The notes beneath the pieces were generated by a model that was not told where the DNA came from, searched no databases, and saw only the letters and a program-made list of their open reading frames with translations. From assembly GCA_017617995.1 (NCBI GenBank), contig JAFZVE010000073.1, positions 1-64,000 on the forward strand: a stretch of 64,000 nucleotides of DNA. Direction: 5' to 3'. The DNA is from Clostridiales bacterium (GTDB taxonomy: Bacteria; Bacillota; Clostridia; Saccharofermentanales; Saccharofermentanaceae). The first letter of the stretch is position 1. Each line of letters opens with the position of its first letter. Of the stretch, positions 10,431 to 64,000 are shown piece by piece. Made by a program: the position numbers and the translations under genes.

Positions 10431-11828
10431 TTATACCTTCGGACGGGCTACTTTCTGATACACATCCGGCGCCGTTTCTTCAAAGAGATGCACCAGTTCC
10501 TCATCTGAGATTACGGTGACACGGCCGCCGGCGTACTGCTCGTCGATCCATTCCTTCATCTTCGCAATAAAGGGATCCTTCTTGCTGACAGCGCTCTCAC
10601 CGGCGAGTCGGTAGTAGTTGTTGATCCAGCATGCGATACCGGCCAGACCGGACACGTTGCTGACTGCGACAAGCGGCGGGCGATCAAGGAGAGCCTCGGT
10701 ATCGAAGATGTTATAGATCTCCGGATCTTTCAGGAGGCCATCGGCGTGGATACCTGCCTTGGTTACGTTGAAGTTCTTGCCGACAAAAGGTGTCATCGGC
10801 GGGAGCTCGTAGTGGGTCTCTCTGGAGATGTAATCGGCGATCTCCGTGATCACACGGGAATCCATGCCGTCGAGCGTACCGCGGAGCTGGGCATACTCGA
10901 AGACCATCGCCTCAAGCGGTACATTACCTGTTCTCTCACCGATGCCGAGGAGCGAGCAGTTTACGGCCTGTGCACCGTAGAGCCATGCTGTCGAAGCGTT
11001 TACGACGCCCTTGTAGAAGTCGTTGTGTCCATGCCACTCGAGCATCTCGCACGGCACACCCGCATAGTGCTGAAGACCATAGATGATACCCGAAACAGAT
11101 CTCGGAAGAGCAACGCCCGGGAACGGTACGCCGTAGCCCATCGTATCACAGGCACGGATCTTGACCGGAATACCGCTTTCTTCGGAAAGTCTCATCAGGG
11201 CCGTGGCAAACGGTACGACGAAGCCGTAGAAGTCGGCACGGGTGATGTCCTCGAAGTGGCAGCGCGGACGAAGTCCTGCGTCAATCGCGTCGGTCACGAT
11301 ACCGATGTATTTGTCGAGGGCCTGCTTACGGGTAAGACCCATCTTGTTGAAAATATGGTAGTCGGAGCAGGACACCAGAATACCTGTCTCCTTGATGCCG
11401 ATGTTGCGGACAAGCGCGAAGTCAGACTTGGTCGCACGGATCCAGGTCGTGATCTCCGGGAACTTATATCCGAGAGCCATACACTGCTCGAGAGCCTGAC
11501 GGTCTTTATCCGAATAGACGAAGAACTCGGTCTGGCGGATGATGCCCTTCGGACCGCCGAGGCGGTGCAGCATCTTATAGATCTCGACCATCTGCTCCGT
11601 GGTATACGGTGCACGGGACTGCTGTCCGTCACGGAAAGTCGTATCGGTGATATAGATATTCTCCGGCATGTTCATCGGAACTTTCCGGTAGTTGTAGGCG
11701 ATTTTCGGTACTTCGGCATACGGGAACAGTTCACGGAAAAGTTCCGGCTTCTCAACATCCTGCAGCGTATACTGATAAGGATCCTGTTCCAGAAGATTAC
11801 TCTTGTCACTCAGCGCGATATTTTTCAT
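10431..11828 (-). CDS. Re-citrate synthase / homocitrate synthase-like HMGL-family enzyme
   Basis: 465 residues of the DRE-TIM metallolyase superfamily. ITDTTFRDGQQ carries the metal-binding Asp and the general-base Arg. Further signatures are HFEDITRAD, KIRACDTMGYG and the metal-ligand histidines in LEWHGHNDF. The N-terminal extension (DPYQYTLQDVEKPELFRELF) and overall length recall the clostridial Re-citrate synthases described from Clostridium kluyveri. Those make citrate from acetyl-CoA and oxaloacetate to feed glutamate synthesis. A homocitrate or isopropylmalate-type activity cannot be excluded from sequence alone. It has a GAGGAA-type site and an upstream promoter, and is followed closely by the GLUG protein gene. 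Confidence 0.82.
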   Translation of the reverse strand: MKNIALSDKSNLLEQDPYQYTLQDVEKPELFRELFPYAEVPKIAYNYRKVPMNMPENIYITDTTFRDGQQSRAPYTTEQMVEIYKMLHRLGGPKGIIRQTEFFVYSDKDRQALEQCMALGYKFPEITTWIRATKSDFALVRNIGIKETGILVSCSDYHIFNKMGLTRKQALDKYIGIVTDAIDAGLRPRCHFEDITRADFYGFVVPFATALMRLSEESGIPVKIRACDTMGYGVPFPGVALPRSVSGIIYGLQHYAGVPCEMLEWHGHNDFYKGVVNASTAWLYGAQAVNCSLLGIGERTGNVPLEAMVFEYAQLRGTLDGMDSRVITEIADYISRETHYELPPMTPFVGKNFNVTKAGIHADGLLKDPEIYNIFDTEALLDRPPLVAVSNVSGLAGIACWINNYYRLAGESAVSKKDPFIAKMKEWIDEQYAGGRVTVISDEELVHLFEETAPDVYQKVARPKV

Positions 11829-13288: not shown

Positions 13289-14389
13289 ATGAGTCAGACA
13301 TCTATTATCAAGAAAATCAATAACGCCAACAGAAGTGCCAAGATCATCGGCGGCCTGGTCTGTATCGTCTTCGCCATTTTGATTGCGATCGGTCTTCTGC
13401 CGCAGCACACGAAGTACTATCTGGCAAGCAAGAACGTCTTTGCCACGCCGACCGATTCGTACAAGAATGACCAGTTCTACCGTGGCAAGACCTACTCCAT
13501 CTATGACTGGTTCGCCGAGAACTCGGACGGCCGATTCTATCTGTGCCCGGCCGAAGACGAGGACGGTAACGATGCGTACCTCATCGTGTATATGCCGAAG
13601 AAGTTCGAATCGAAGGCGGATAAGGTCATGGAGCAGACGTGGGAATACCTCGAGACCGGGGATGAATCTCTTCTTAAGGAGAGCATCAACTGCCGGGGAT
13701 ATATCGACGATATCAATCCGAAGACCATGGTTTATCTGAACGAGTATTTCGATCTGGCGCAGGCTCCGGCTTCTGTCCGAAACCAGGTCGCCGACAAGAT
13801 GTTCGTCATGGTACCGATGCAGAAAGTCCTCTTGAGTGAAGCGAGTCTGTATATCTTCCTCGAGCTCGTACTGCTTGTCTGTGGTCTCGGACTCATCCTG
13901 ATGTCATTTAGTAAGAAGCACTTAAAGAAGATCGACAGCCGTCTCGCCAGAGAGTCTCTGACCTCTTCAGATCTTGATGCCGAGTTCCAAACGCCGCTTC
14001 TGCAGTTCGGCTCGATCTATGTTAGCGACAAGCATGTCGTCACCGCAACGATGACTCCGCAGATCCTGACGATCGCGGACGTAGTCTGGATGTATCCGAA
14101 CAAGGTCAACCAGGTCAACAGTAAGCCGATCCATCAGGCTGTATTCTTTACAAAGAATCACGAATGTCTCCGCTTCGTGGTGAAGGACGAGAATCAGGCC
14201 GAAGCGCTCTGTAGAGCCGTGCACGAGAAACAGCCTCGCGCCCTCTACGGATATGTGATCGAAAACTCGCAGATGTACTACAGTAATTTCGACGTTCTTG
14301 TGGATCAGGTGTATAACCAGGCCGGCTCTACGGAAACACCACCTGAAATGAACAACGCGAATGAAACGGATAAGGAGGAGCAGGTATGA
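13289..14389 (+). CDS. Uncharacterised two-helix membrane protein, first gene of the nadE operon
   Basis: 366 residues with transmembrane helices at about 19-38 and 188-208. A soluble domain lies between them, and after the second helix comes a C-terminal domain with alternating beta-like segments (FGSIYVSDKHVVTATMTPQI). The C-terminal part reminds me of the DUF6709 or PH-like class, but this is tentative. GGAAGG precedes the ATG. The stop overlaps the nadE start by ATGA, so the two are probably co-translated. I do not recognise a function. The coupling to an NAD synthetase with a defective glutaminase domain is the main clue to its role. Confidence 0.75.
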   Translation: MSQTSIIKKINNANRSAKIIGGLVCIVFAILIAIGLLPQHTKYYLASKNVFATPTDSYKNDQFYRGKTYSIYDWFAENSDGRFYLCPAEDEDGNDAYLIVYMPKKFESKADKVMEQTWEYLETGDESLLKESINCRGYIDDINPKTMVYLNEYFDLAQAPASVRNQVADKMFVMVPMQKVLLSEASLYIFLELVLLVCGLGLILMSFSKKHLKKIDSRLARESLTSSDLDAEFQTPLLQFGSIYVSDKHVVTATMTPQILTIADVVWMYPNKVNQVNSKPIHQAVFFTKNHECLRFVVKDENQAEALCRAVHEKQPRALYGYVIENSQMYYSNFDVLVDQVYNQAGSTETPPEMNNANETDKEEQV

Positions 14390-16314
14390 AGGACGGATTC
14401 TTACGAGTAGGAGCAGCTACCCCGAAGCTGCGCGTCGCCGATATTGACTACAACACAGATCAGATTATCGCTTGTGTCAACGGAGCGGACAAGGACTGTG
14501 CTCTCCTGGTTTTCCCGGAACTTTGTGTCACCGGCGCGACCTGCGGAGATCTCTTCCTGCAGGAGTCCTTCATCGACAAGGCCTGGGAAGCCCTCTACCG
14601 TATCGCCGAGGAGACATCCGACGCACCGCAGAGCTTCATCATCGGCCTCCCCGCCTATATCGAAGGCAAACTTCTCAACCTGGCTGTAGTCCTTCACCAG
14701 GGAATCGTACTCGGCTGTAATGTCAAGCTGACCCTGAGCGCGGAAGAATCCCGTTACTTCTCCCCTTACGAAGTAAACGGTTCCTTCTTTGACGAATACT
14801 TCGACGACGAGATCACCTTCGGTCAGCCGCTCTATTTCGGTGATAACGACCTCTTCTCCTTCGGCGTATTCTTCGACGAAGACCTGCGTGCACCGATCTC
14901 GGACGACGTCGATGCAGCGCTTTCGGGCTGTAACATCATGGCGATCCTCTCGTCCCGTCCCTACACGGTCGGAACCGCCGAGAAGACCAGAACCCTTCTC
15001 GCCGCGCAGAGCAGAAAGCTCCACGCCGCCTATATCTACGCAAATGCCGGTGTCGGCGAGTCGACCACGGACCAGATTTTCGCCGGGACAAACTACATCT
15101 ACGAAAACGGAAGAGAGCTAACGAGAAGCAGCGCTTTTGAAGCGGGAGCGATCTACACCGACATTGACCTCAAACTTCTGTCCGGAGAGCGTATGCGCGA
15201 CACTTCCTGGAGAACCGACTTCGCCAATAGTTCCGCAGATTCGGACTTCGACTTCATCAGCTTCGAGCAGGAGCTGAACCCCGAGCTTTCGCTCATCCGT
15301 CCCGTTCCGACGAATCCTTTCGTTCCGGAGAACAAGGACGAGATCGCCGAGCGCTGCGAGCAGATCCTCACCATGCAGGCGATGGGACTTGTCACCCGTA
15401 TGACACATGTCAACTGCAAAAAGGTCATCTTAGGCCTCTCGGGCGGACTTGACTCCACCCTCGCCTTCCTCGTCTGCGCACGGGCATTTGACATCATGGG
15501 CCTTCCGAAGGAAGACATCCACGCCATCACGATGCCCTGTTTCGGCACGACATCCCGTACCAAGAACAATTCCATCGAGCTCGCCAAGGCGTATGGTGCG
15601 AGAATCGACGAGATCTCCATCAAGGACAGCGTCACCCAGCACTTCAAGGACATCGGGCACGATATGGATAACCACAATGTCGCTTACGAGAATGCGCAGG
15701 CCAGAGAGCGTACCCAGCTCCTCATGGACCTCGGCAACGACGAAGGTTCCCTCGTTGTCGGTACCGGCGACCTCAGTGAACTCGCACTCGGCTGGGCGAC
15801 CTATAACGGCGACCATATGTCGATGTACGCCGTGAACGGTTCCGTGCCGAAAACTCTGATCCGCTACATCGTAGCATATGAGGCAGACCGCGTCAGTGAA
15901 TCGCAGCCGGAGCTCGCCGCCGTTCTCCGCGACATCCTGGATACACCGGTATCTCCGGAGCTTCTGCCCCCGTCCGAGGATGGCACCATCTCGCAGAAGA
16001 CCGAAGATCTCGTCGGACCGTATGAGCTCCACGACTTCTTCCTCTACTACTTCGTACGTCTCGGCTTCGCCCCGTCGAAGATCTACCGCATCGCGAAGAT
16101 CGCCTTCGCCGGTGCCTACGATGATCAGACGATCTACAAGTGGGAAGAGAATTTCCTGCGCCGCTTCATCAGCCAGCAGTTCAAGCGTTCCTGCCTGCCG
16201 GACGGTCCGAAGGTCGGTTCCGTGGACCTCTCTCCACGCGGTGATCTGAGACTTCCTTCCGATGCCACTTCGAAAGTATTTCTCGAAGAACTCCGGACGG
16301 TGCTCGACACATGA
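14386..16314 (+). CDS. nadE: NAD+ synthetase with degenerate (Cys-to-Asp) glutaminase domain
   Basis: 642 residues, the normal length for a glutamine-dependent NAD synthetase. An N-terminal nitrilase-type glutaminase (about 1-280) precedes a C-terminal ATP-pyrophosphatase synthetase. The synthetase part is intact: GLSGGLDST P-loop and GTGDLSELALGW. In the glutaminase domain Glu45 (FPELCVTG) and probably Lys114 remain. The nucleophile position, ICEDLW in normal enzymes, reads FFDEDLRAP, so Cys is replaced by Asp164 (codon 14875-14877). The enzyme probably cannot hydrolyse glutamine itself and would need free ammonia or another glutaminase. A complete-looking paralogue sits at 62250-64000. Both neighbours overlap it by 4 bases. 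Confidence 0.93.
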   Translation: MKDGFLRVGAATPKLRVADIDYNTDQIIACVNGADKDCALLVFPELCVTGATCGDLFLQESFIDKAWEALYRIAEETSDAPQSFIIGLPAYIEGKLLNLAVVLHQGIVLGCNVKLTLSAEESRYFSPYEVNGSFFDEYFDDEITFGQPLYFGDNDLFSFGVFFDEDLRAPISDDVDAALSGCNIMAILSSRPYTVGTAEKTRTLLAAQSRKLHAAYIYANAGVGESTTDQIFAGTNYIYENGRELTRSSAFEAGAIYTDIDLKLLSGERMRDTSWRTDFANSSADSDFDFISFEQELNPELSLIRPVPTNPFVPENKDEIAERCEQILTMQAMGLVTRMTHVNCKKVILGLSGGLDSTLAFLVCARAFDIMGLPKEDIHAITMPCFGTTSRTKNNSIELAKAYGARIDEISIKDSVTQHFKDIGHDMDNHNVAYENAQARERTQLLMDLGNDEGSLVVGTGDLSELALGWATYNGDHMSMYAVNGSVPKTLIRYIVAYEADRVSESQPELAAVLRDILDTPVSPELLPPSEDGTISQKTEDLVGPYELHDFFLYYFVRLGFAPSKIYRIAKIAFAGAYDDQTIYKWEENFLRRFISQQFKRSCLPDGPKVGSVDLSPRGDLRLPSDATSKVFLEELRTVLDT

Positions 16315-17573
16315 AACAGGAAAGAGCATTTGCCAGAGCAGTGGTAACCGAGAAAGCGGAGGGCGCCATCAAGCGCGGCCATCCGTGGGTATACGATACC
16401 GAGATCACAGAGTATAACGGCACCACCGCCAAGGACGGTGCTTTTCCCGAGGAAGTCGGGATCGAAAACGGCGCACTTGTCGATGTTTTCTCGAAGAAGA
16501 ACCGCTATCTCGGGACCGGTTTTCTCAGTAAAAACAGCAAGATCCGCATCCGGATCCTGAGCAACAACGCCAACGAAGCGTTTGGCGACACATTCTGGCA
16601 GCGCCGCGTCCGCTACGCGCTCGATATGAGAAGGACCGTGATGCAGGATGATTATTCATGCTGCCGCCTGATCTTCGGTGAAGCTGACGGCATCCCGGGC
16701 CTTACGGTCGACCGCTACGAGGATATTCTCAGTACCGAGGTCCTTTCCTACGGCACCGAGCAGGTCAAGGACGTCATCTATCGCGCACTCGTAGAGGAAC
16801 TTCAAAAGGACGGTATCACCGTCCGCGGCATCTTCGAAAGAAACGAAGCGAAGATCCGTGAACTCGAAGGACTCCCGCTCGAGAAAGGCTGGTATCAGGG
16901 CAATTTCGTCGGCACGCCCGACTCCGCGCGCGTCGAGATCTGCGAGAACGGCATCCGCTACACCGTCGATGTCGAGAACGGCCAGAAGACCGGCTTCTTT
17001 CTCGATCAGAAATATAACCGTCTCGCAGTCAGCAAACTCGCCCGTGGCATGAACGTCCTCGACTGCTTCACGCATACCGGCTCCTTCGCGCTGAATGCCG
17101 CCAAGGGCGGTGCCGCACACGTTACGGCTGTCGACGTCTCGCAGTTCGCCGTGGATACCGCAGCGGAAAATGCACGGATCAATGGTCTTTCGGACCGCAT
17201 GGATTTCGTATGTGCAGATGTCTTCGACCTGCTTCCGAAGCTCGCCGAAGAGCACGCAGACTATAACTTCATCATCCTGGATCCGCCGGCCTTCACCAAG
17301 AGCCGTAAGACCACGGATAACGCCAAGCGCGGCTATAAGGAGATCAATTACCGTGCCATGAAGATGCTGCCTCGTGGCGGCTATCTCGCCACCTGCTCGT
17401 GCTCGCACTTCATGCCAAATGAATTATTCAGAAAGATGCTTCTCGAGGCCGCACACGATGCCGGTGTCACACTTCGTCTCATCGAAGAACGACGGGCCGC
17501 ACCGGACCATCCGGTCGCGATGACGATTCCCGAGACCGACTATCTGAAGTTCTATCTTCTGCAGATTGTGTAA
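16311..17573 (+). CDS. RlmI/RlmK-like class I rRNA (cytosine-C5) methyltransferase
   Basis: 420 residues. An N-terminal PUA-like RNA-binding domain (AIKRGHPWVYDTEI, about 18-90) is followed by a linker and a Rossmann methyltransferase domain. The latter has SAM motif I NVLDCFTHTGSFALNAA, motif IV FIILDPPAFTKSR, and a Cys-containing motif TCSCSHFM as in m5C methyltransferases. The family methylates 23S rRNA, for example C1962 by E. coli RlmI. It overlaps the nadE stop by ATGA and is the last gene of the three-gene operon. The family is confident; the exact target nucleotide is inferred. Confidence 0.92.
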   Translation: MKQERAFARAVVTEKAEGAIKRGHPWVYDTEITEYNGTTAKDGAFPEEVGIENGALVDVFSKKNRYLGTGFLSKNSKIRIRILSNNANEAFGDTFWQRRVRYALDMRRTVMQDDYSCCRLIFGEADGIPGLTVDRYEDILSTEVLSYGTEQVKDVIYRALVEELQKDGITVRGIFERNEAKIRELEGLPLEKGWYQGNFVGTPDSARVEICENGIRYTVDVENGQKTGFFLDQKYNRLAVSKLARGMNVLDCFTHTGSFALNAAKGGAAHVTAVDVSQFAVDTAAENARINGLSDRMDFVCADVFDLLPKLAEEHADYNFIILDPPAFTKSRKTTDNAKRGYKEINYRAMKMLPRGGYLATCSCSHFMPNELFRKMLLEAAHDAGVTLRLIEERRAAPDHPVAMTIPETDYLKFYLLQIV

Positions 17574-17612: not shown

Positions 17613-20402
17613 TTAAGGTTTAAACTCCTCGAGGCTCTTAAGATACGTGAACTTGAGACTCTTGAGTTTAAGGCCCCGCTTTCCAAAATGCATGCGGAAT
17701 ACGGAGTGCTTCGCGATCAGGATACACTCCCCTTTCTGGGAAACATCCGCCCCTTCGGTACCCGTGAACGTAATGACACGGATCGGGATGCTCGTGTAGT
17801 AGAGTGTGACCGGAAGCTGTGCAAGAGCCGAGAGCTCGGACGACGCTACCATCTCACACTCATAGACGCCCGGACGGTCGCAGGTAATACCGAAGACGAA
17901 ATCCTTGCCCTCGGACGTATCCACATCTACATTGATCACCGGATCCTTATCGATCTCATAGTAGAGATCGACCTTCGCCTCGATCGTATCTTCCGAGAAC
18001 GGACAGTCGATGTGCTCGACCTCCGGCTTATCGCCCATGACCGCATCCATCGCCGGAGTATTCATCGCGAAATTCAGGATATTCCTTGCATTTCTCTGAA
18101 GCTCGGCACGCGTGATCAGATCGGCATTTCCGCTCTTGAGATTCTCATAGGTATCCGCCGCATCGAGGTCTCCCCTTTCAACGGACGAACACACCATGTA
18201 CACATCGCACTGGGCACGGGCCATCGCCGTATGGCTGCGAAGCGCGTGGTCAAATGGGTTTGCCGGAATGATATCAATGTAGGCCCACCAGTCAGTCATC
18301 AGGATGCCTGTATAGCCCCACTGCTCTCGAAGGATCGTCGTATTCAGCTCGTAGTTCGCCGTACCGAATGTCCCGTTGATCTTGTTATAGACGGACATGA
18401 CACTTCTGGCTTTTCCTTCCTTGATCGCGATCTCAAATCCTTTGAGATAGATCTCGCGGAGCGCACGCTCGGACACGATAGAGTCCATGAAGCGGCGGTT
18501 CGTCTCACGGTTATTGCAGCAGAAGTGCTTGATCGTCGCGGTCACACCGTGCTTCTCAAGTCCGCGGATCTGCGCGGACGCGATACGTCCGGTAAGAAGC
18601 GGATCCTCCGAGAAATACTCGAAGTTTCGGCCATTCAGCGGGTGACGGTGGATATTGATGCCCGGACCGAGTATCGTGTCGACTTCGTTACTGACCATCT
18701 CGATACCGAACCAGTCGAAGAGTTCTTCGTTCAGTTTTTCGTTAAATGTACATGCCAGACATGTGCCGTTTGGAAGCGAGAAGGCTTTCTTTCCGCTGTC
18801 GATACGCATGCCGGACGGACCGTCATCGGCACAGAGTGCCGGGATACCCATCTCACGAAGTTCTTTTGACACGCCGGCAAATGCGGCGGCCGTACCGGTC
18901 GTGACCTTCGGGCTGCCCATACCTTCCCCACGGATGATGAGCGTGAGATCCTCGTCCGGGATCTGCGCGATGAATTCATCCATTGTATTCTTTCCGAGTT
19001 TTACGTCTGCGAGTTTGATTCCTTTATCCCCTGTAAAAGCAATCTCCTCCGGAACTCTCTGAAGTCTGGTGTCGATATGCTCCACATCACGAAGCGGTAC
19101 CGGTTCGTACTTCCCACCGATCGTCAGCCGCTCGAAAGCCTGAAGCGGCTTTCCTGCCGACTCGAGCTGCTCGAGCATCGTGTCTTCCAAGATTTCGAAG
19201 GATCCGACTTCTTCGCAGGATGCGACATTCTCGCCCGCATAGAAGGTATATGTTCCCTTCGGAAGCACCCATCCGGTCTTACCCATGAGGCGGCCGTCAT
19301 CGTCGAAGGACGCCAGACGGTTCATGCCCGCATGAATGGTGATCTCCTCTTCCTGTCCGGGCGTAAGCTCGGAGGTTTTTCCGAAGTCGACCAGCACACG
19401 AGAAGACGTGGTGATGCGGTCCGAAGGAGTCTTCGCGAAGAGCATCACGGTCTTCTTGCCGTTATAACTTCCGATGTTCTTAACGGAAAGCTTCACACTG
19501 ACTTCAGACGGGACATCCCCTTCCTCAGCCTTAAAACTCTGCGGAACGATCTCAAACTTCGTATAGGATAGACCGTAGCCGAACGGGTACAGTACTTTTG
19601 ACGGAGCAAACGTAGAGAAGTAGCGATACCCGACGAATATATCCTCGGCGTAAAAATCTTTCGAGAGGTCTTCACCTCCGAAATTACTCGAAGACGGATA
19701 GTCGGCAAGATCTCTGGCGATCGTGTCCGTGAGGGCACCCGAAGGCGTGGCCTTTCCGGTCAGGATGTTCGCTGCGGCGGTACCGCCGATCATGCCGGCC
19801 TGCCAGACATAGAGCACGGCCGCCGGATCGTATTTCTCGACAAAAGCCATATCGATGATGTTACCGACATTCAGGACAACGATCGTCTTTTCAAAGGCCG
19901 CGCAGACCTTACGGAGCATCTCTTCTTCTCCGTCACTCAGGAAGAAAGCACCATTCTGCGCAGTATTGTCTCGGTCCTCGCCTGCGGTTCTCGCGATAAC
20001 GATCACCGCTGCATCATTTCTTCCGGCCGCCTCGCTAACCACATCATCGGCAAGAGGCATCTCTGGCTGCGACCAGTTCTCCTGTCCCCATCCGACACCC
20101 GGATCGACCGGATTCTTTTCTTCCCAATCCTCATAGATCTTGACGAGATCCTCATCCACTACGATCTCTTTTGCGTTCTGAAGGCCTTCGAGGATTGACA
20201 CGACGTGCTTGACATTGACCATGCCGCCCGAGCCTGTGCCGCTCTTATAGTAATTCTTCTGCATTCTTCCGAATACGGCCACCTTCGCTCCATCACGAAC
20301 AGGAAGTGCTTCGCGGTCGTTCTTCAGAAGGACCGAACCTTCCTCGGCTACACGGATCGCCGCATCTGTATATTTGTTCCAGTCAAGAATGTATTTCGTC
20401 AT
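17613..20402 (-). CDS. GH3 family beta-glucosidase with permuted domain order
   Basis: 929 residues, cytoplasmic (no signal peptide). The usual C-terminal GH3 domain comes first (about 15-290). A fibronectin-III-like segment (about 300-400) follows, then the TIM-barrel domain (about 450-760) with IKHFCCNNRETN and the nucleophile Asp704 in LMTDWWA. A C-terminal extension follows. This reversed order is known from beta-glucosidases of Ruminococcus albus and Butyrivibrio fibrisolvens. It probably splits imported cello-oligosaccharides or other beta-glucosides; the substrate is inferred. GGAGG precedes the ATG. It stands alone, divergent from a lipoprotein gene, with no sugar transporter adjacent. 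Confidence 0.93.
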   Translation of the reverse strand: MTKYILDWNKYTDAAIRVAEEGSVLLKNDREALPVRDGAKVAVFGRMQKNYYKSGTGSGGMVNVKHVVSILEGLQNAKEIVVDEDLVKIYEDWEEKNPVDPGVGWGQENWSQPEMPLADDVVSEAAGRNDAAVIVIARTAGEDRDNTAQNGAFFLSDGEEEMLRKVCAAFEKTIVVLNVGNIIDMAFVEKYDPAAVLYVWQAGMIGGTAAANILTGKATPSGALTDTIARDLADYPSSSNFGGEDLSKDFYAEDIFVGYRYFSTFAPSKVLYPFGYGLSYTKFEIVPQSFKAEEGDVPSEVSVKLSVKNIGSYNGKKTVMLFAKTPSDRITTSSRVLVDFGKTSELTPGQEEEITIHAGMNRLASFDDDGRLMGKTGWVLPKGTYTFYAGENVASCEEVGSFEILEDTMLEQLESAGKPLQAFERLTIGGKYEPVPLRDVEHIDTRLQRVPEEIAFTGDKGIKLADVKLGKNTMDEFIAQIPDEDLTLIIRGEGMGSPKVTTGTAAAFAGVSKELREMGIPALCADDGPSGMRIDSGKKAFSLPNGTCLACTFNEKLNEELFDWFGIEMVSNEVDTILGPGINIHRHPLNGRNFEYFSEDPLLTGRIASAQIRGLEKHGVTATIKHFCCNNRETNRRFMDSIVSERALREIYLKGFEIAIKEGKARSVMSVYNKINGTFGTANYELNTTILREQWGYTGILMTDWWAYIDIIPANPFDHALRSHTAMARAQCDVYMVCSSVERGDLDAADTYENLKSGNADLITRAELQRNARNILNFAMNTPAMDAVMGDKPEVEHIDCPFSEDTIEAKVDLYYEIDKDPVINVDVDTSEGKDFVFGITCDRPGVYECEMVASSELSALAQLPVTLYYTSIPIRVITFTGTEGADVSQKGECILIAKHSVFRMHFGKRGLKLKSLKFTYLKSLEEFKP

Positions 20403-21463: not shown

Positions 21464-22480
21464 TTAAGACTCGTTAACTAGTTTTCCCGTCATGTATACC
21501 GGGATGATCTCCAGACATTGTGCGCGAGGGAGTGCGTGGGTGACCTCATGTTCGAGATACTCTTCGTCATCGGTGAATTTCTTAACGAGAGCGGTACCGA
21601 TTCTCTTCGTTTTTTCCGGATCGTCTACAAGCGCGATTCGGCCGCGGACAACGACACTTCGGATATTTAAGGCCCATTCCCCTTCTTTACGGAATCCGTC
21701 GTCCATGACACAGAAGCTCACCTTATCACAGGCCTGGATCGAGTCGATCTTATGTCCTTCTTTCGCACCGTGAAAATAGATATGTCCGTCCTCTTCACAG
21801 TACCAGTGGTTCATCGGGATGCCGTACGGGTAACCAAGTTCGCCCAGGATCGACAGTACGCCGCGCTTGCTGTTCTTCAGGACCTCGATGCACTCTTCTT
21901 CCGTCAGCTGCTGCTTGATTCTGCGCATCGGACGAAAAGTCGGGATCCAGTATCTTTTCATCGTCGTTCCATCCACTTCGATGGTCTTTTCGAAGACGCC
22001 GCCGTTACTGAGGATCGCCTTCTCACTTCCGAGATTGTTTTCATCGCAGGTCACGAGCATCCGCTCTATGCCCATCTCTTTCGCCTTTAGGATATTCAGA
22101 CGGAGCATCTCCCTGGCATATCCTCTGCCACGCTCGGACGGACGTACGGAATACCCGCAGTGGCCACCCCAGGTCCCGAGGATCGGATGGTCGATATGGT
22201 GCCGCAGGTCGATGATCCCTACGAGCCGGTCATCACTTCTTCTGATGGCCAGAAACATGCTTGACGGCACGGTAGTTCCGACGGACTCACAGGTTTCCGT
22301 GCTTTTCCGAAGGAGACAGATTCTGATCCACTCTTCCGAAGAGGCAGCCGTATCCAGGGACAGACACCCTGCGAAGCGGTCTTCACTATCCGCGTCCGTC
22401 TCGAGGATCTCTGCGCGGAAATCCCAGATCTGGTCCGCATATTCTATTGTTGGTTCGATTAAGTAGATCTCATCTGCCAT
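21464..22480 (-). CDS. GNAT acetyltransferase fused to an FMN-binding split-barrel (PPOX/NimA-like) domain
   Basis: 338 residues. Residues 1 to about 180 are a GNAT acetyltransferase with the acetyl-CoA motif RPSERGRGYAREML. Residues about 185-338 are a pyridoxamine-phosphate-oxidase-like split barrel (RRIKQQLTEEECIEVL start, GVLSILGELGYPYGIPMN, then IYFHGAKEGHKID) as in NimA nitroimidazole-resistance or flavin-reductase-like proteins. The two domains are usually separate genes. The ATG has a GAGG site. An extended -10 promoter lies upstream and the shared bidirectional terminator downstream. Detoxification of a small molecule is a guess; the substrates are unknown. Confidence 0.88.
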   Translation of the reverse strand: MADEIYLIEPTIEYADQIWDFRAEILETDADSEDRFAGCLSLDTAASSEEWIRICLLRKSTETCESVGTTVPSSMFLAIRRSDDRLVGIIDLRHHIDHPILGTWGGHCGYSVRPSERGRGYAREMLRLNILKAKEMGIERMLVTCDENNLGSEKAILSNGGVFEKTIEVDGTTMKRYWIPTFRPMRRIKQQLTEEECIEVLKNSKRGVLSILGELGYPYGIPMNHWYCEEDGHIYFHGAKEGHKIDSIQACDKVSFCVMDDGFRKEGEWALNIRSVVVRGRIALVDDPEKTKRIGTALVKKFTDDEEYLEHEVTHALPRAQCLEIIPVYMTGKLVNES

Positions 22481-58894: not shown

Positions 58895-59833
58895 TTAATC
58901 GTCTCTCAGTTCTTTACCCGTAAGTTCGAGGAAAACATCGTTCAGGGTGGGTTGCTCGGAGTAGACGTTCTTCATGCGGTAGCCCTTCTCCTCGAGGAGC
59001 TTGATGACTCCGACTACGTTGTTGCCCTTGCCGGCCTCGATCTTTAAGTGCTTGCCGTCATAGTCGACGCTGAAGATGTTATCGAGTCTTCTGAGTCTGT
59101 CGAGATCGTCGTCCGAGATGCCCTTGGCCTCGATCTTGATCATCTCGCTCTTCTTGATCATGCTCTTGAGTTCATCTACGGAACCCTCGGCGATCAGCTG
59201 TCCCTTGTCGATGATGATGATGCGGTCTGCCAGCTGCTCGACTTCTTCCATGTAGTGCGAGGTGTAGATGATCGTCGCGCCGTCCTGTCTCAGCTTCTCG
59301 ATCCCCTCGAGGATCTTGTTACGGCTCTGCGGGTCGACCGCGACAGTCGGCTCATCGAAGAAGATGATCTTCGGCTTATGTGCGATTCCGCATGCGATAT
59401 TGAGTCTTCTCTTAAGACCGCCGGAGAGCTTCTTCGGACGGAATTTCTTAAACTCTTCGAGCCCTACGAAGTCGATCGCTTCCTGTACAAGCTTTTTTCT
59501 CTCAGCCTTATCGGTCACATACAGTCCGCAGAAGAAATCGATGTTCTCATAAACCGTAAGTTCTTCAAAAACGGAGACTTCCTGAGGTACCACGCCAATC
59601 TGACTCTTCAGGTCGTAGGACTTCGGTGTCATTTCCTTGCCCATGATCGTGATCGTTCCCTTGTCGAATTCCAGAAGGGACAGGATGCAGTTGATGGTCG
59701 TCGACTTACCGCTGCCGTTCGGGCCCAGAAGTCCGAGGATCTCGCCCTCGTTGACCGACATGCTGAAGTTGTCCACGGCGATCAGTTCTTTATAACGCTT
59801 CACAAGTCCATCTACCTTAATAATCTCACTCAT
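58895..59833 (-). CDS. ABC transporter ATP-binding protein (LnrL/DrrA-like)
   Basis: 312 residues of the CcmA/DrrA drug-exporter ATPase group. Walker A GPNGSGKSTT, signature LSGGLKRRLNIA, Walker B KIIFFDEPTVAVDP and H-switch YTSHYMEEVEQL are all present. A C-terminal regulatory extension (about 215-312) is also typical. ATG at 59833 with an AGG site gives the expected MSEIIKVDGLVKRY start; an ATG at 59902 would add a basic, unlikely extension. It leads a cluster with two permeases and a NarL-type two-component system, the composition of Bacillus lnrJKLMN. Confidence 0.95.
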   Translation of the reverse strand: MSEIIKVDGLVKRYKELIAVDNFSMSVNEGEILGLLGPNGSGKSTTINCILSLLEFDKGTITIMGKEMTPKSYDLKSQIGVVPQEVSVFEELTVYENIDFFCGLYVTDKAERKKLVQEAIDFVGLEEFKKFRPKKLSGGLKRRLNIACGIAHKPKIIFFDEPTVAVDPQSRNKILEGIEKLRQDGATIIYTSHYMEEVEQLADRIIIIDKGQLIAEGSVDELKSMIKKSEMIKIEAKGISDDDLDRLRRLDNIFSVDYDGKHLKIEAGKGNNVVGVIKLLEEKGYRMKNVYSEQPTLNDVFLELTGKELRDD

Positions 59834-60020
59834 TTTCTTAACCTCGCTTTTCTTCACGAATGTTCTTGTGTTTTTGTCTCGGGGCTTGCCCGCTCTCTTC
59901 ATGACACCATTATTCCATTCTTCGTTTCCCGGCGTTAGTGAACTCCATCACTTCCCGACATGACAAATGTCATTTCCTGATTTCACGGTAGAAGAGTTTT
60001 CTCTCCGCAAACGCAAAAAC

Positions 60021-62249: not shown

Positions 62250-64000
62250 TTATCCCCGATCCAGATCTTCGAGCCACAGTGCGACCTTTGCATCACTCGG
62301 CATACGCCAGTCCCCTCTCGGCGACAGAGAAACCGAACCGACCTTCGGGCCATCCGGCAGGCAGCTTCTCTTGAACTGCTGTGTGAAGAAGCGCCGGAAG
62401 AATTTCCGCGCTGCCTCGACTACGTCCTCTTTCGCAAGTTCCGGGTAGGCATAGAGCGCATAGGCCGCCGAGCGTGCCGGCTCGAAACCGTATCGGAGAG
62501 TATAGTACAGGAAGAAATCGTTAAGATCGTACTTTCCGATCTTCTCCTCGGTCTTCTGTGCAATCGCCCCGTCCTCACTCGGTGTCAGTTCCGGTGTGAT
62601 CGGCGTATCGCAGATGGAGAAGATCACCTCTTTCAGTTCCTCATTTCCGCAGATCATGGCATATGACCTGCAGATATACTGGACCAGGGTCTTCGGCACA
62701 GAAGCATTCACCGCGTACATGGACATGTGGTCACCGTTATACGTACACCACCCGAGCGCAAGCTCAGAGAGATCACCCGTTCCGACCACAAGACCGTTCT
62801 TCATGTTCGCCGCATCCATCAGGATATAGGTACGCATCCTCGCCTGCGCGTTTTCATAGGTCACATCGCCCTCACCCTGATATGCCAATTCATGCCCGAG
62901 CTGGGAAAGATGCAGGTTTACCCCTTCCCCGATCGCAACTTCATAGGACTCATCCGCCAGCAGATGCAACAGTTTCCAAGCATTCCCCAGCGTATGCTCC
63001 GTCGTATTTCCTTCACTTGGAAGCGTATACCCGATGATATGGATATCCGGAACGATTTTCTTCGCCTCGGCACACACGAGCAGCGCCAGCGTCGAGTCCA
63101 GTCCTCCGGAGATGCCGATCACCAGATTCTTGATCCTCGTTGCCCGGACGCGTGTCGCCAGACCATTGGCCTGGATCTGCAGGATATTTCTGCACCGCTC
63201 ATCTCGCGCATGTTTACCCGCGGGCACGAAAGGATTTCTCGCGATCGGGTAATCGTACTTCTTCATGATCTCCGCCATGCCGGAGATATCGGTCTCGTCG
63301 GTCTCAGCAGCCTTCATACGTACCGGCACTCTTCTGTAATTCCCGGCAAAATCATTATCGAAAGTATTCTGTTTCCTTCGATCGTGCATGATCGGTCCCA
63401 GATCGACAAGTGTCTTCTCCACATGCGGATACGACGGGAAAAGCACTTCCGCCAGGAGTTTACCGCTCTGTGCGAGGATCGTATGTCCCGAGAAGACCAG
63501 ATCCGTACTGCTTTCGCCTGTTCCGGAAGAAACATAGATATAGGCACAGTAGCACGCTCCGCTCTGCTGGCTCACGAGCGATCTCCGGTACTCCTGTTTG
63601 CCGATCAGTTCATCGGATGCCGAAAGATTCGCGATGATGTTCGCGCCGGCCAGCGCCGCATGTGTGCTCGGTTTATCCGGGATCCACAGATCCTCGCAGA
63701 TCTCTACGCCCAGGACGGCACCGGTCACCGGATCCTCCGGAAGGATATCCACACCAAACGGCACCGTCATCTCGACCGGGAAGATCGTATTCTTGTCACC
63801 ACAGAGCGTGACACTCTTTCCTCTTACTTCCTTACCGGAAGCGAACCAGCGGCATTCGTAGAATTCCGAATAATTCGGAATATACGACTTCGGGATCAGT
63901 GCCTTGACCACACCCTCCGACAGGACGGCCGCGCAGTTATATAATTTGTTCCCGTATCGCAGAGGCACACCGACCAGTGCCGTCACACCTGTATCCGCCG
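62250..64000 (-). CDS. nadE: Glutamine-dependent NAD+ synthetase, intact glutaminase domain (5' end beyond the window)
   Basis: At least 583 residues; the frame stays open to the right edge, so the N-terminus is missing. The visible nitrilase-like glutaminase has the catalytic Lys in LIPKSYIPNYSEFY and the nucleophile Cys in GVEICEDLWIP (codon 63698-63696). The synthetase domain has GISGGLDSTLALLV and GTGDLSELALGW. It amidates nicotinate adenine dinucleotide using glutamine, the last step of NAD synthesis. Unlike the paralogue at 14386-16314 all visible key residues are present, so this is probably the housekeeping enzyme. A GTG near 63984 is not the start, because homology continues upstream of it. 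Confidence 0.95.
   Translation of the reverse strand, partial: ADTGVTALVGVPLRYGNKLYNCAAVLSEGVVKALIPKSYIPNYSEFYECRWFASGKEVRGKSVTLCGDKNTIFPVEMTVPFGVDILPEDPVTGAVLGVEICEDLWIPDKPSTHAALAGANIIANLSASDELIGKQEYRRSLVSQQSGACYCAYIYVSSGTGESSTDLVFSGHTILAQSGKLLAEVLFPSYPHVEKTLVDLGPIMHDRRKQNTFDNDFAGNYRRVPVRMKAAETDETDISGMAEIMKKYDYPIARNPFVPAGKHARDERCRNILQIQANGLATRVRATRIKNLVIGISGGLDSTLALLVCAEAKKIVPDIHIIGYTLPSEGNTTEHTLGNAWKLLHLLADESYEVAIGEGVNLHLSQLGHELAYQGEGDVTYENAQARMRTYILMDAANMKNGLVVGTGDLSELALGWCTYNGDHMSMYAVNASVPKTLVQYICRSYAMICGNEELKEVIFSICDTPITPELTPSEDGAIAQKTEEKIGKYDLNDFFLYYTLRYGFEPARSAAYALYAYPELAKEDVVEAARKFFRRFFTQQFKRSCLPDGPKVGSVSLSPRGDWRMPSDAKVALWLEDLDRG

Follow-up and report, generated by a model that had tools for sequence, protein, structure and literature searches.

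A two-domain NAD synthetase with an inactivated glutaminase domain, predicted to be ammonia-dependent, in a genus of Clostridia

The locus and its two-domain NAD synthetase

The window analysed here is a stretch of 64,000 nucleotides at the start of a contig from a Clostridiales genome, and it holds two genes of the NAD synthetase NadE (Table 1). The first encodes a protein that lacks the nucleophile Cys of the glutaminase domain (hereafter Cys-less NadE). The NF002730 NAD(+) synthase profile matches its residues 2-640 with 725.9 bits (cut-off 473). Judged by this match, the protein is a member of the two-domain NAD(+) synthase family and is of the octameric NadE-Gln type by descent. Its closest solved relative, both by sequence and by predicted fold, is NadE of Mycobacterium tuberculosis (Mtb), and 6ofc was the top structural match of its model (Z 45.1, 595 aligned residues, rmsd 2.4). 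The alignment showed that the synthetase residues Asp497, Arg576 and Lys644 (Mtb numbering) are retained. An earlier note, made from the letters of the window, had described the synthetase motifs as conserved, and this was borne out: 102 of 110 near-invariant synthetase columns are kept (in 95% or more of the orthologues) and two are lost.

Table 1. Features of the two NadE loci in the window, with Mtb numbering for equivalent residues
Feature	Position	Strand	Basis or remark
DUF6709 protein (membrane), 4-base overlap with start of Cys-less gene	13289..14389	+	PF20456
Cys-less two-domain NAD synthetase (pseudo-glutaminase + synthetase), 642 aa	14386..16314	+	NF002730, PF00795 + PF02540, fold match 6ofc
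Pseudo-glutaminase (nitrilase-fold) domain, ~residues 3-262	14392..15171	+	PF00795 residues 10-265, pLDDT, dN/dS
Glu45 = Mtb Glu52 (triad), kept in all readable orthologues	14518..14520	+	alignment
Ala51 replacing Mtb Tyr58 (constriction 1)	14536..14538	+	alignment; role from PMC6946656
Lys114 = Mtb Lys121 (triad), kept in all readable orthologues	14725..14727	+	alignment
YRE-loop 4-residue deletion, ~residues 119 to 121, all readable orthologues	14740..14748	+	alignment
Asp164 (GAC) replacing nucleophile Mtb Cys176	14875..14877	+	alignment with Mtb NadE structures
Arg168 replacing Mtb Phe180 (glutamine-pocket residue; Trp in intact relatives)	14887..14889	+	alignment
Arg191 replacing Mtb Ser203 (Ser in all intact relatives but one)	14956..14958	+	alignment
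Synthetase (N-type ATP pyrophosphatase) domain, ~residues 320-636	15343..16293	+	PF02540 94.5 bits
ATP pyrophosphatase signature SGGLDST, residues 352-358	15439..15459	+	sequence
RlmI-like SAM methyltransferase, 4-base overlap with end of Cys-less gene	16311..17573	+	conserved neighbour in the genus
Intact (Cys-containing) NadE-Gln paralogue, cut by window end	62250..64000	-	full gene contig C36 62250-64226, 658 aa

The three genes between 13289 and 17573 look operon-like, with short overlaps at both junctions. The DUF6709 gene lies upstream of Cys-less nadE in almost every genome of the genus, and the RlmI-like gene is its conserved downstream neighbour; this set was not found around NadE at the sister-genus loci examined. 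DUF6709 evolves much faster than the neighbouring genes. Searching the window with Rfam gave no match, and with it no known riboswitch near either NadE copy. Three further genes of the window, all on the reverse strand, were noted. The GH3 glycosidase at 17613-20402 has its catalytic domains swapped, with Glyco_hydro_3_C first and Glyco_hydro_3 second. At 21464-22480, a GNAT acetyltransferase is fused to a pyridoxamine-phosphate-oxidase-like domain that resembles Nim nitroimidazole reductases and scores below the curated Nim cut-off. The isopropylmalate/homocitrate synthase-like protein at 10431-11828 stays well under all curated cut-offs (best 145.9 vs 462.9 bits), and it shows 95-97% identity between species of the genus.

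A lost glutamine pocket in a constrained domain

The earlier note had read the nucleophile Cys as replaced and had proposed an alignment with structural NadE homologues. This alignment confirmed the replacement, placing Asp164 exactly on Cys176 of the M. tuberculosis NadE structures, which include C176A mutants. The aligned lesion is larger than the earlier note reported; Tyr58, four residues of the YRE loop, Phe/Trp180, Ser203 and Lys209 are also gone. The position of Tyr58 is occupied by A, C, K or S within the genus and by Tyr in all intact relatives but one, and position 209 is Thr in the Cys-less protein and Lys in relatives. The YRE loop is Tyr127-Glu132 in M. tuberculosis, and this loop and several of the lost pocket residues hold glutamine, make up the main constriction and link the two active sites (PMC6946656). 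The loop is unambiguously shorter by four residues, although the exact placement of the gap is ambiguous. Along the ammonia tunnel, Asp497 and Lys644 are aligned as kept and the entrance residues Tyr58 and Phe130 as lost.

A nearby Cys serving as substitute nucleophile, which the earlier note had named as evidence against its claim, was looked for in the orthologues and not found. Cys47, Cys111, Cys152 and Cys182 each lack a counterpart in one orthologue or more; Cys38 and Cys53 are found in intact enzymes too. Among the Cys-less orthologues there is no clade-invariant Cys beyond the family-wide ones.

Outside the pocket the glutaminase domain is conserved. Intact relatives have 46 near-invariant columns in this domain; 27 of them are kept, and 14 are lost throughout the tested orthologues, every one of these in a pocket segment (Mtb 58, 125-131 and 174-213). 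Median dN/dS was 0.077 for the dead glutaminase domain vs 0.078 for the synthetase domain. The glutaminase/synthetase dN ratio was 1.67 in the Cys-less clade vs 1.94 and 1.73 in intact groups, and the corresponding divergence ratio was 1.76 for Cys-less proteins, 2.00 for an intact sister genus and 1.60 for second copies. The AlphaFold monomer model has a confident nitrilase fold, most pLDDT values in the dead domain being 84-98, and it retains the strand 158-163 and the helix 164-168 that flank the old nucleophile. As modelled, then, the dead domain is folded, and its rates indicate that it is under purifying selection and is not decaying. A relaxed domain was rejected because intact enzymes evolve at similar rates and with similar dN/dS.

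Origin, distribution and the accessory second copy

The Cys-less orthologue is present in all 23 genomes of the genus, with 77-93% identity. In one of them (G020) the two parts of the gene lie in different frames, with the break near position 164, leaving 22 readable orthologues. Position 164 is Asp in 13 and His in nine of these and Cys in none, and the loop deletion is found in all 22. Since the Cys is missing in every readable orthologue, from separate genomes, chance or an error of sequencing or assembly is excluded. The sister genera have one orthologue each, which is intact in all examined. In a tree of 170 proteins, the Cys-less proteins form one clade with support 100 inside the family's own NadE, and the glutaminase would therefore most simply have been lost once, in the ancestor of the genus. 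The difference between Asp and His at position 164 is one change on this tree. By its placement, Cys-less nadE is the vertically inherited gene of the family. Three family members match public records by exact protein (Clostridiales RGIG5067 from roe deer rumen, Mageeibacillus UBA3708 and Saccharofermentans RUI031), which marks the family as a lineage of Clostridia of the rumen and gut type.

Two other clostridial proteins have lost the Cys. L100 is a sole NadE with Cys to Gly in which Tyr58, Trp180, Ser203 and Lys209 are lost too, and L094 is a sole NadE with Cys to Ser and Glu177 to Asn that keeps most of the pocket. Because both are placed elsewhere in the tree, three losses are needed, and on this tree the Cys has been lost three times independently, in the genus clade, in L100 and in L094. 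L100 and L094 are each from a single metagenome-assembled genome on a long branch and are weaker evidence than the genus. We also scanned 391 genomes of the class for E-I-x-E-D-x-W with the Cys changed to any codon that does not start with T. This pattern scan found one further NadE (L189), in the unrelated clostridial genome G167, with Cys to Gly in EIGEDLW; it is the only NadE match there and was left out of the count for an upstream in-frame TAA. Three sister-genus genomes (G061, G071 and G110) are without two-domain NadE and have a match of ~250 aa resembling single-domain NadE, which, judged from its sequence, looks like a different route to ammonia use.

The intact copy, which the earlier note saw incomplete since the gene continues past the window end to contig position 64226, has another history. 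It is about 42-45% identical to the Cys-less copy and lies on a separate long branch of the tree. The earlier note had also suggested searching genomes for co-occurring intact and Cys-less NadE, and we found both in 17 of 23 genomes. The intact copy is absent from the other six, four of which are at least 94% complete. Within the Cys-less clade, presence of the second copy requires five changes on the tree. On the window's contig, the intact gene belongs to an accessory segment of ~10 kb (60082-69974) that also encodes a GNAT/DUF4298 protein, a GH114 protein, a Sel1-repeat protein and an AraC-GGDEF protein. In G010 the genes that flank this segment (contig 58895-59902 and 70293-71717) are adjacent, so that the segment is cleanly absent from the syntenic place. 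The window genome does have two copies, as the earlier note said, but its label of a second NAD synthetase misleads when applied to the Cys-less gene, which is the vertical one; the intact gene is accessory. The second copy of G014 (L030, intact type) has an in-frame TAA, and this genome may also rely on its Cys-less copy.

In G001, G008, G010 and G021 (94, 99, 95 and 95% complete), no full NadE other than the Cys-less protein was found. A hidden second NAD synthetase was searched for in three ways, with the PF02540 profile, the Cys-less protein and the intact copy as queries, and only the Cys-less gene scored at the level of NadE; other PF02540 matches in these genomes reached 20-30 bits and are probably other ATP pyrophosphatases. 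The genomes of this study are mostly metagenome-assembled, and absence of the second copy rests on completeness estimates and on synteny in one genome. A change of pathway that makes NadE dispensable was rejected, because nadD is above its curated cut-off in all four genomes and genes for the precursor of nicotinic acid adenine dinucleotide (NaAD) are present (nadC and NAPRTase in G008 and G010, nadC in G021, NAPRTase in G001). With these genes and no other NadE, the single-copy species should make NaAD and need the Cys-less protein to convert it to NAD.

Predicted ammonia dependence, alternatives and known systems

We consider it likely that the Cys-less protein, which would descend from octameric glutamine-dependent NadE, depends obligately on ammonia for NAD+ synthesis, with the pseudo-glutaminase as the structural core of the oligomer. 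The synthetase domain would adenylate NaAD with ATP, and the adenylated intermediate would be amidated with ammonia taken from solution. The N-terminal domain would neither hydrolyse nor hold glutamine; it would be retained most likely as the central core of the octamer, where it would also line some of the route towards the synthetase site. Among the options raised in the earlier note, free ammonia as substrate has the best support, and we infer ammonia as donor, the octamer and the structural role of the domain. Single-copy species have no NadE glutaminase, so free ammonia would be the simplest nitrogen source. Two-domain NadE is known to accept free ammonia as a substrate (PMC6946656), and human NADSYN1 C175Y, changed at the same residue, retains near-wild-type ammonia-dependent activity and has lost glutamine use (PMC10866660). 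The synthetase units of the NadE-Gln octamer are carried on a core built from glutaminase tetramers in two layers (PMC6946656), which would account for the retention of the dead domain. Affinity for ammonia is low in intact two-domain enzymes (Km ~42 mM for the human enzyme, PMC6946656), and therefore high ammonia in the habitat or compensating changes in the enzyme would be needed.

A purely structural role gives no explanation for the retention of Glu45 and Lys114, and this is the main reason for keeping another reading, in which the pocket is repurposed as an ammonium-entry or regulatory-ligand site made of Glu45, Lys114, Glu/Asp165 and the new Asp/His164. Such a refitted pocket (Glu165 in this protein) would capture ammonium or sense a ligand, feeding or gating the synthetase domain, and the enzyme would work with ammonia at lower levels than a usual two-domain NadE needs. 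None of the 22 readable orthologues has a change at Glu45 or Lys114, in contrast to the free variation of neighbouring pocket residues, and position 164 is restricted to Asp or His. However, this restriction may be inheritance from a single change, and Glu and Lys may be retained for folding; we regard the repurposed pocket, and equally the predicted gain at low ammonia, as possible but rather improbable.

It is less probable still that the Cys-less protein is a regulatory or scaffold subunit, which modulates intact NadE in hetero-oligomers. The two copies do occur together in most genomes of the genus, ~40-50 kb apart in G000, G007, G013 and G018. However, they are separate lineages with less than half of their residues identical, the synthetase residues of the Cys-less copy are conserved as in an active enzyme, and since six genomes, including the four nearly complete ones, have no intact copy, regulation or scaffolding of the active paralogue, another suggestion of the earlier note, cannot be the general role. 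A stand-alone glutaminase, a nitrilase-like C-N hydrolase that pairs with the Cys-less protein and feeds ammonia to the synthetase site, is a slim prospect: NAD synthetases of types C and R have their glutaminase as a separate subunit (PMC3376133) and most genomes of the genus have one or two stand-alone CN_hydrolases, but none of these genes adjoins nadE, they are found both with and without intact NadE, and the docking place for a glutaminase is already occupied by the fused dead domain. That the Cys-less gene is a paralogue in decay, being lost since the intact copy was gained, is hardly credible, because in spite of the second copy in most genomes and the split gene of G020, its frame is open at full length in nearly all species, dN/dS is ~0.08 in both domains and it is the sole copy in several species.

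NAD synthetases are classified as fused (F), clustered (C), remote (R) or none (N), and the characterised F enzymes all use glutamine (PMC3376133). The preferred ammonia-dependent enzyme does not fit simply into one type. Type N, with the synthetase domain alone, is refuted by the PF00795 fold, which is present and confidently modelled. The name 'glutamine-dependent NAD synthetase' should not be given either, because the nucleophile and the pocket, two defining features of the class, are gone from the sequence. The protein should be regarded as F type by descent and architecture that is predicted to behave like N. We found no earlier report of a natural two-domain NadE with a dead glutaminase in the open-access literature. 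A natural two-domain NadE with a dead but constrained domain as sole synthetase would bridge the glutamine-using and ammonia-using types, and presence of a glutaminase domain would be no predictor of the nitrogen donor. It would also be a natural test of the roles of the glutaminase domain besides hydrolysis.

Compared with M. tuberculosis NadE (NadE1-Gln, type F; 3DLA/6OFC), the Cys-less protein has the same domain order, length, fold, synthetase residues and Glu and Lys of the triad, but it is without the nucleophile Cys, its YRE loop is four residues shorter, and the pocket aromatics and Ser are lost. With NadE-NH3 (type N; NadE of E. coli or B. subtilis) it shares the predicted chemistry, in which free ammonia is the donor; unlike this type, it keeps a full-length, constrained glutaminase-fold domain and belongs to the two-domain family by sequence. 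NADSYN1 C175Y and Mtb C176A have lost the nucleophile in the same type of enzyme, but they are single-change disease or laboratory mutants, whereas the loss in Cys-less NadE is natural, genus-wide and affects multiple residues. Human carbamoyl phosphate synthetase 1 (CPS1), of the urea cycle, is an amidotransferase that retains an inactive glutaminase domain (Cys to Ser294) and takes free ammonia (PMC4655335). Cys-less NadE would be a bacterial parallel to CPS1, with a different class of glutaminase and a different synthetase, so the likeness is an analogy of strategy and not homology.
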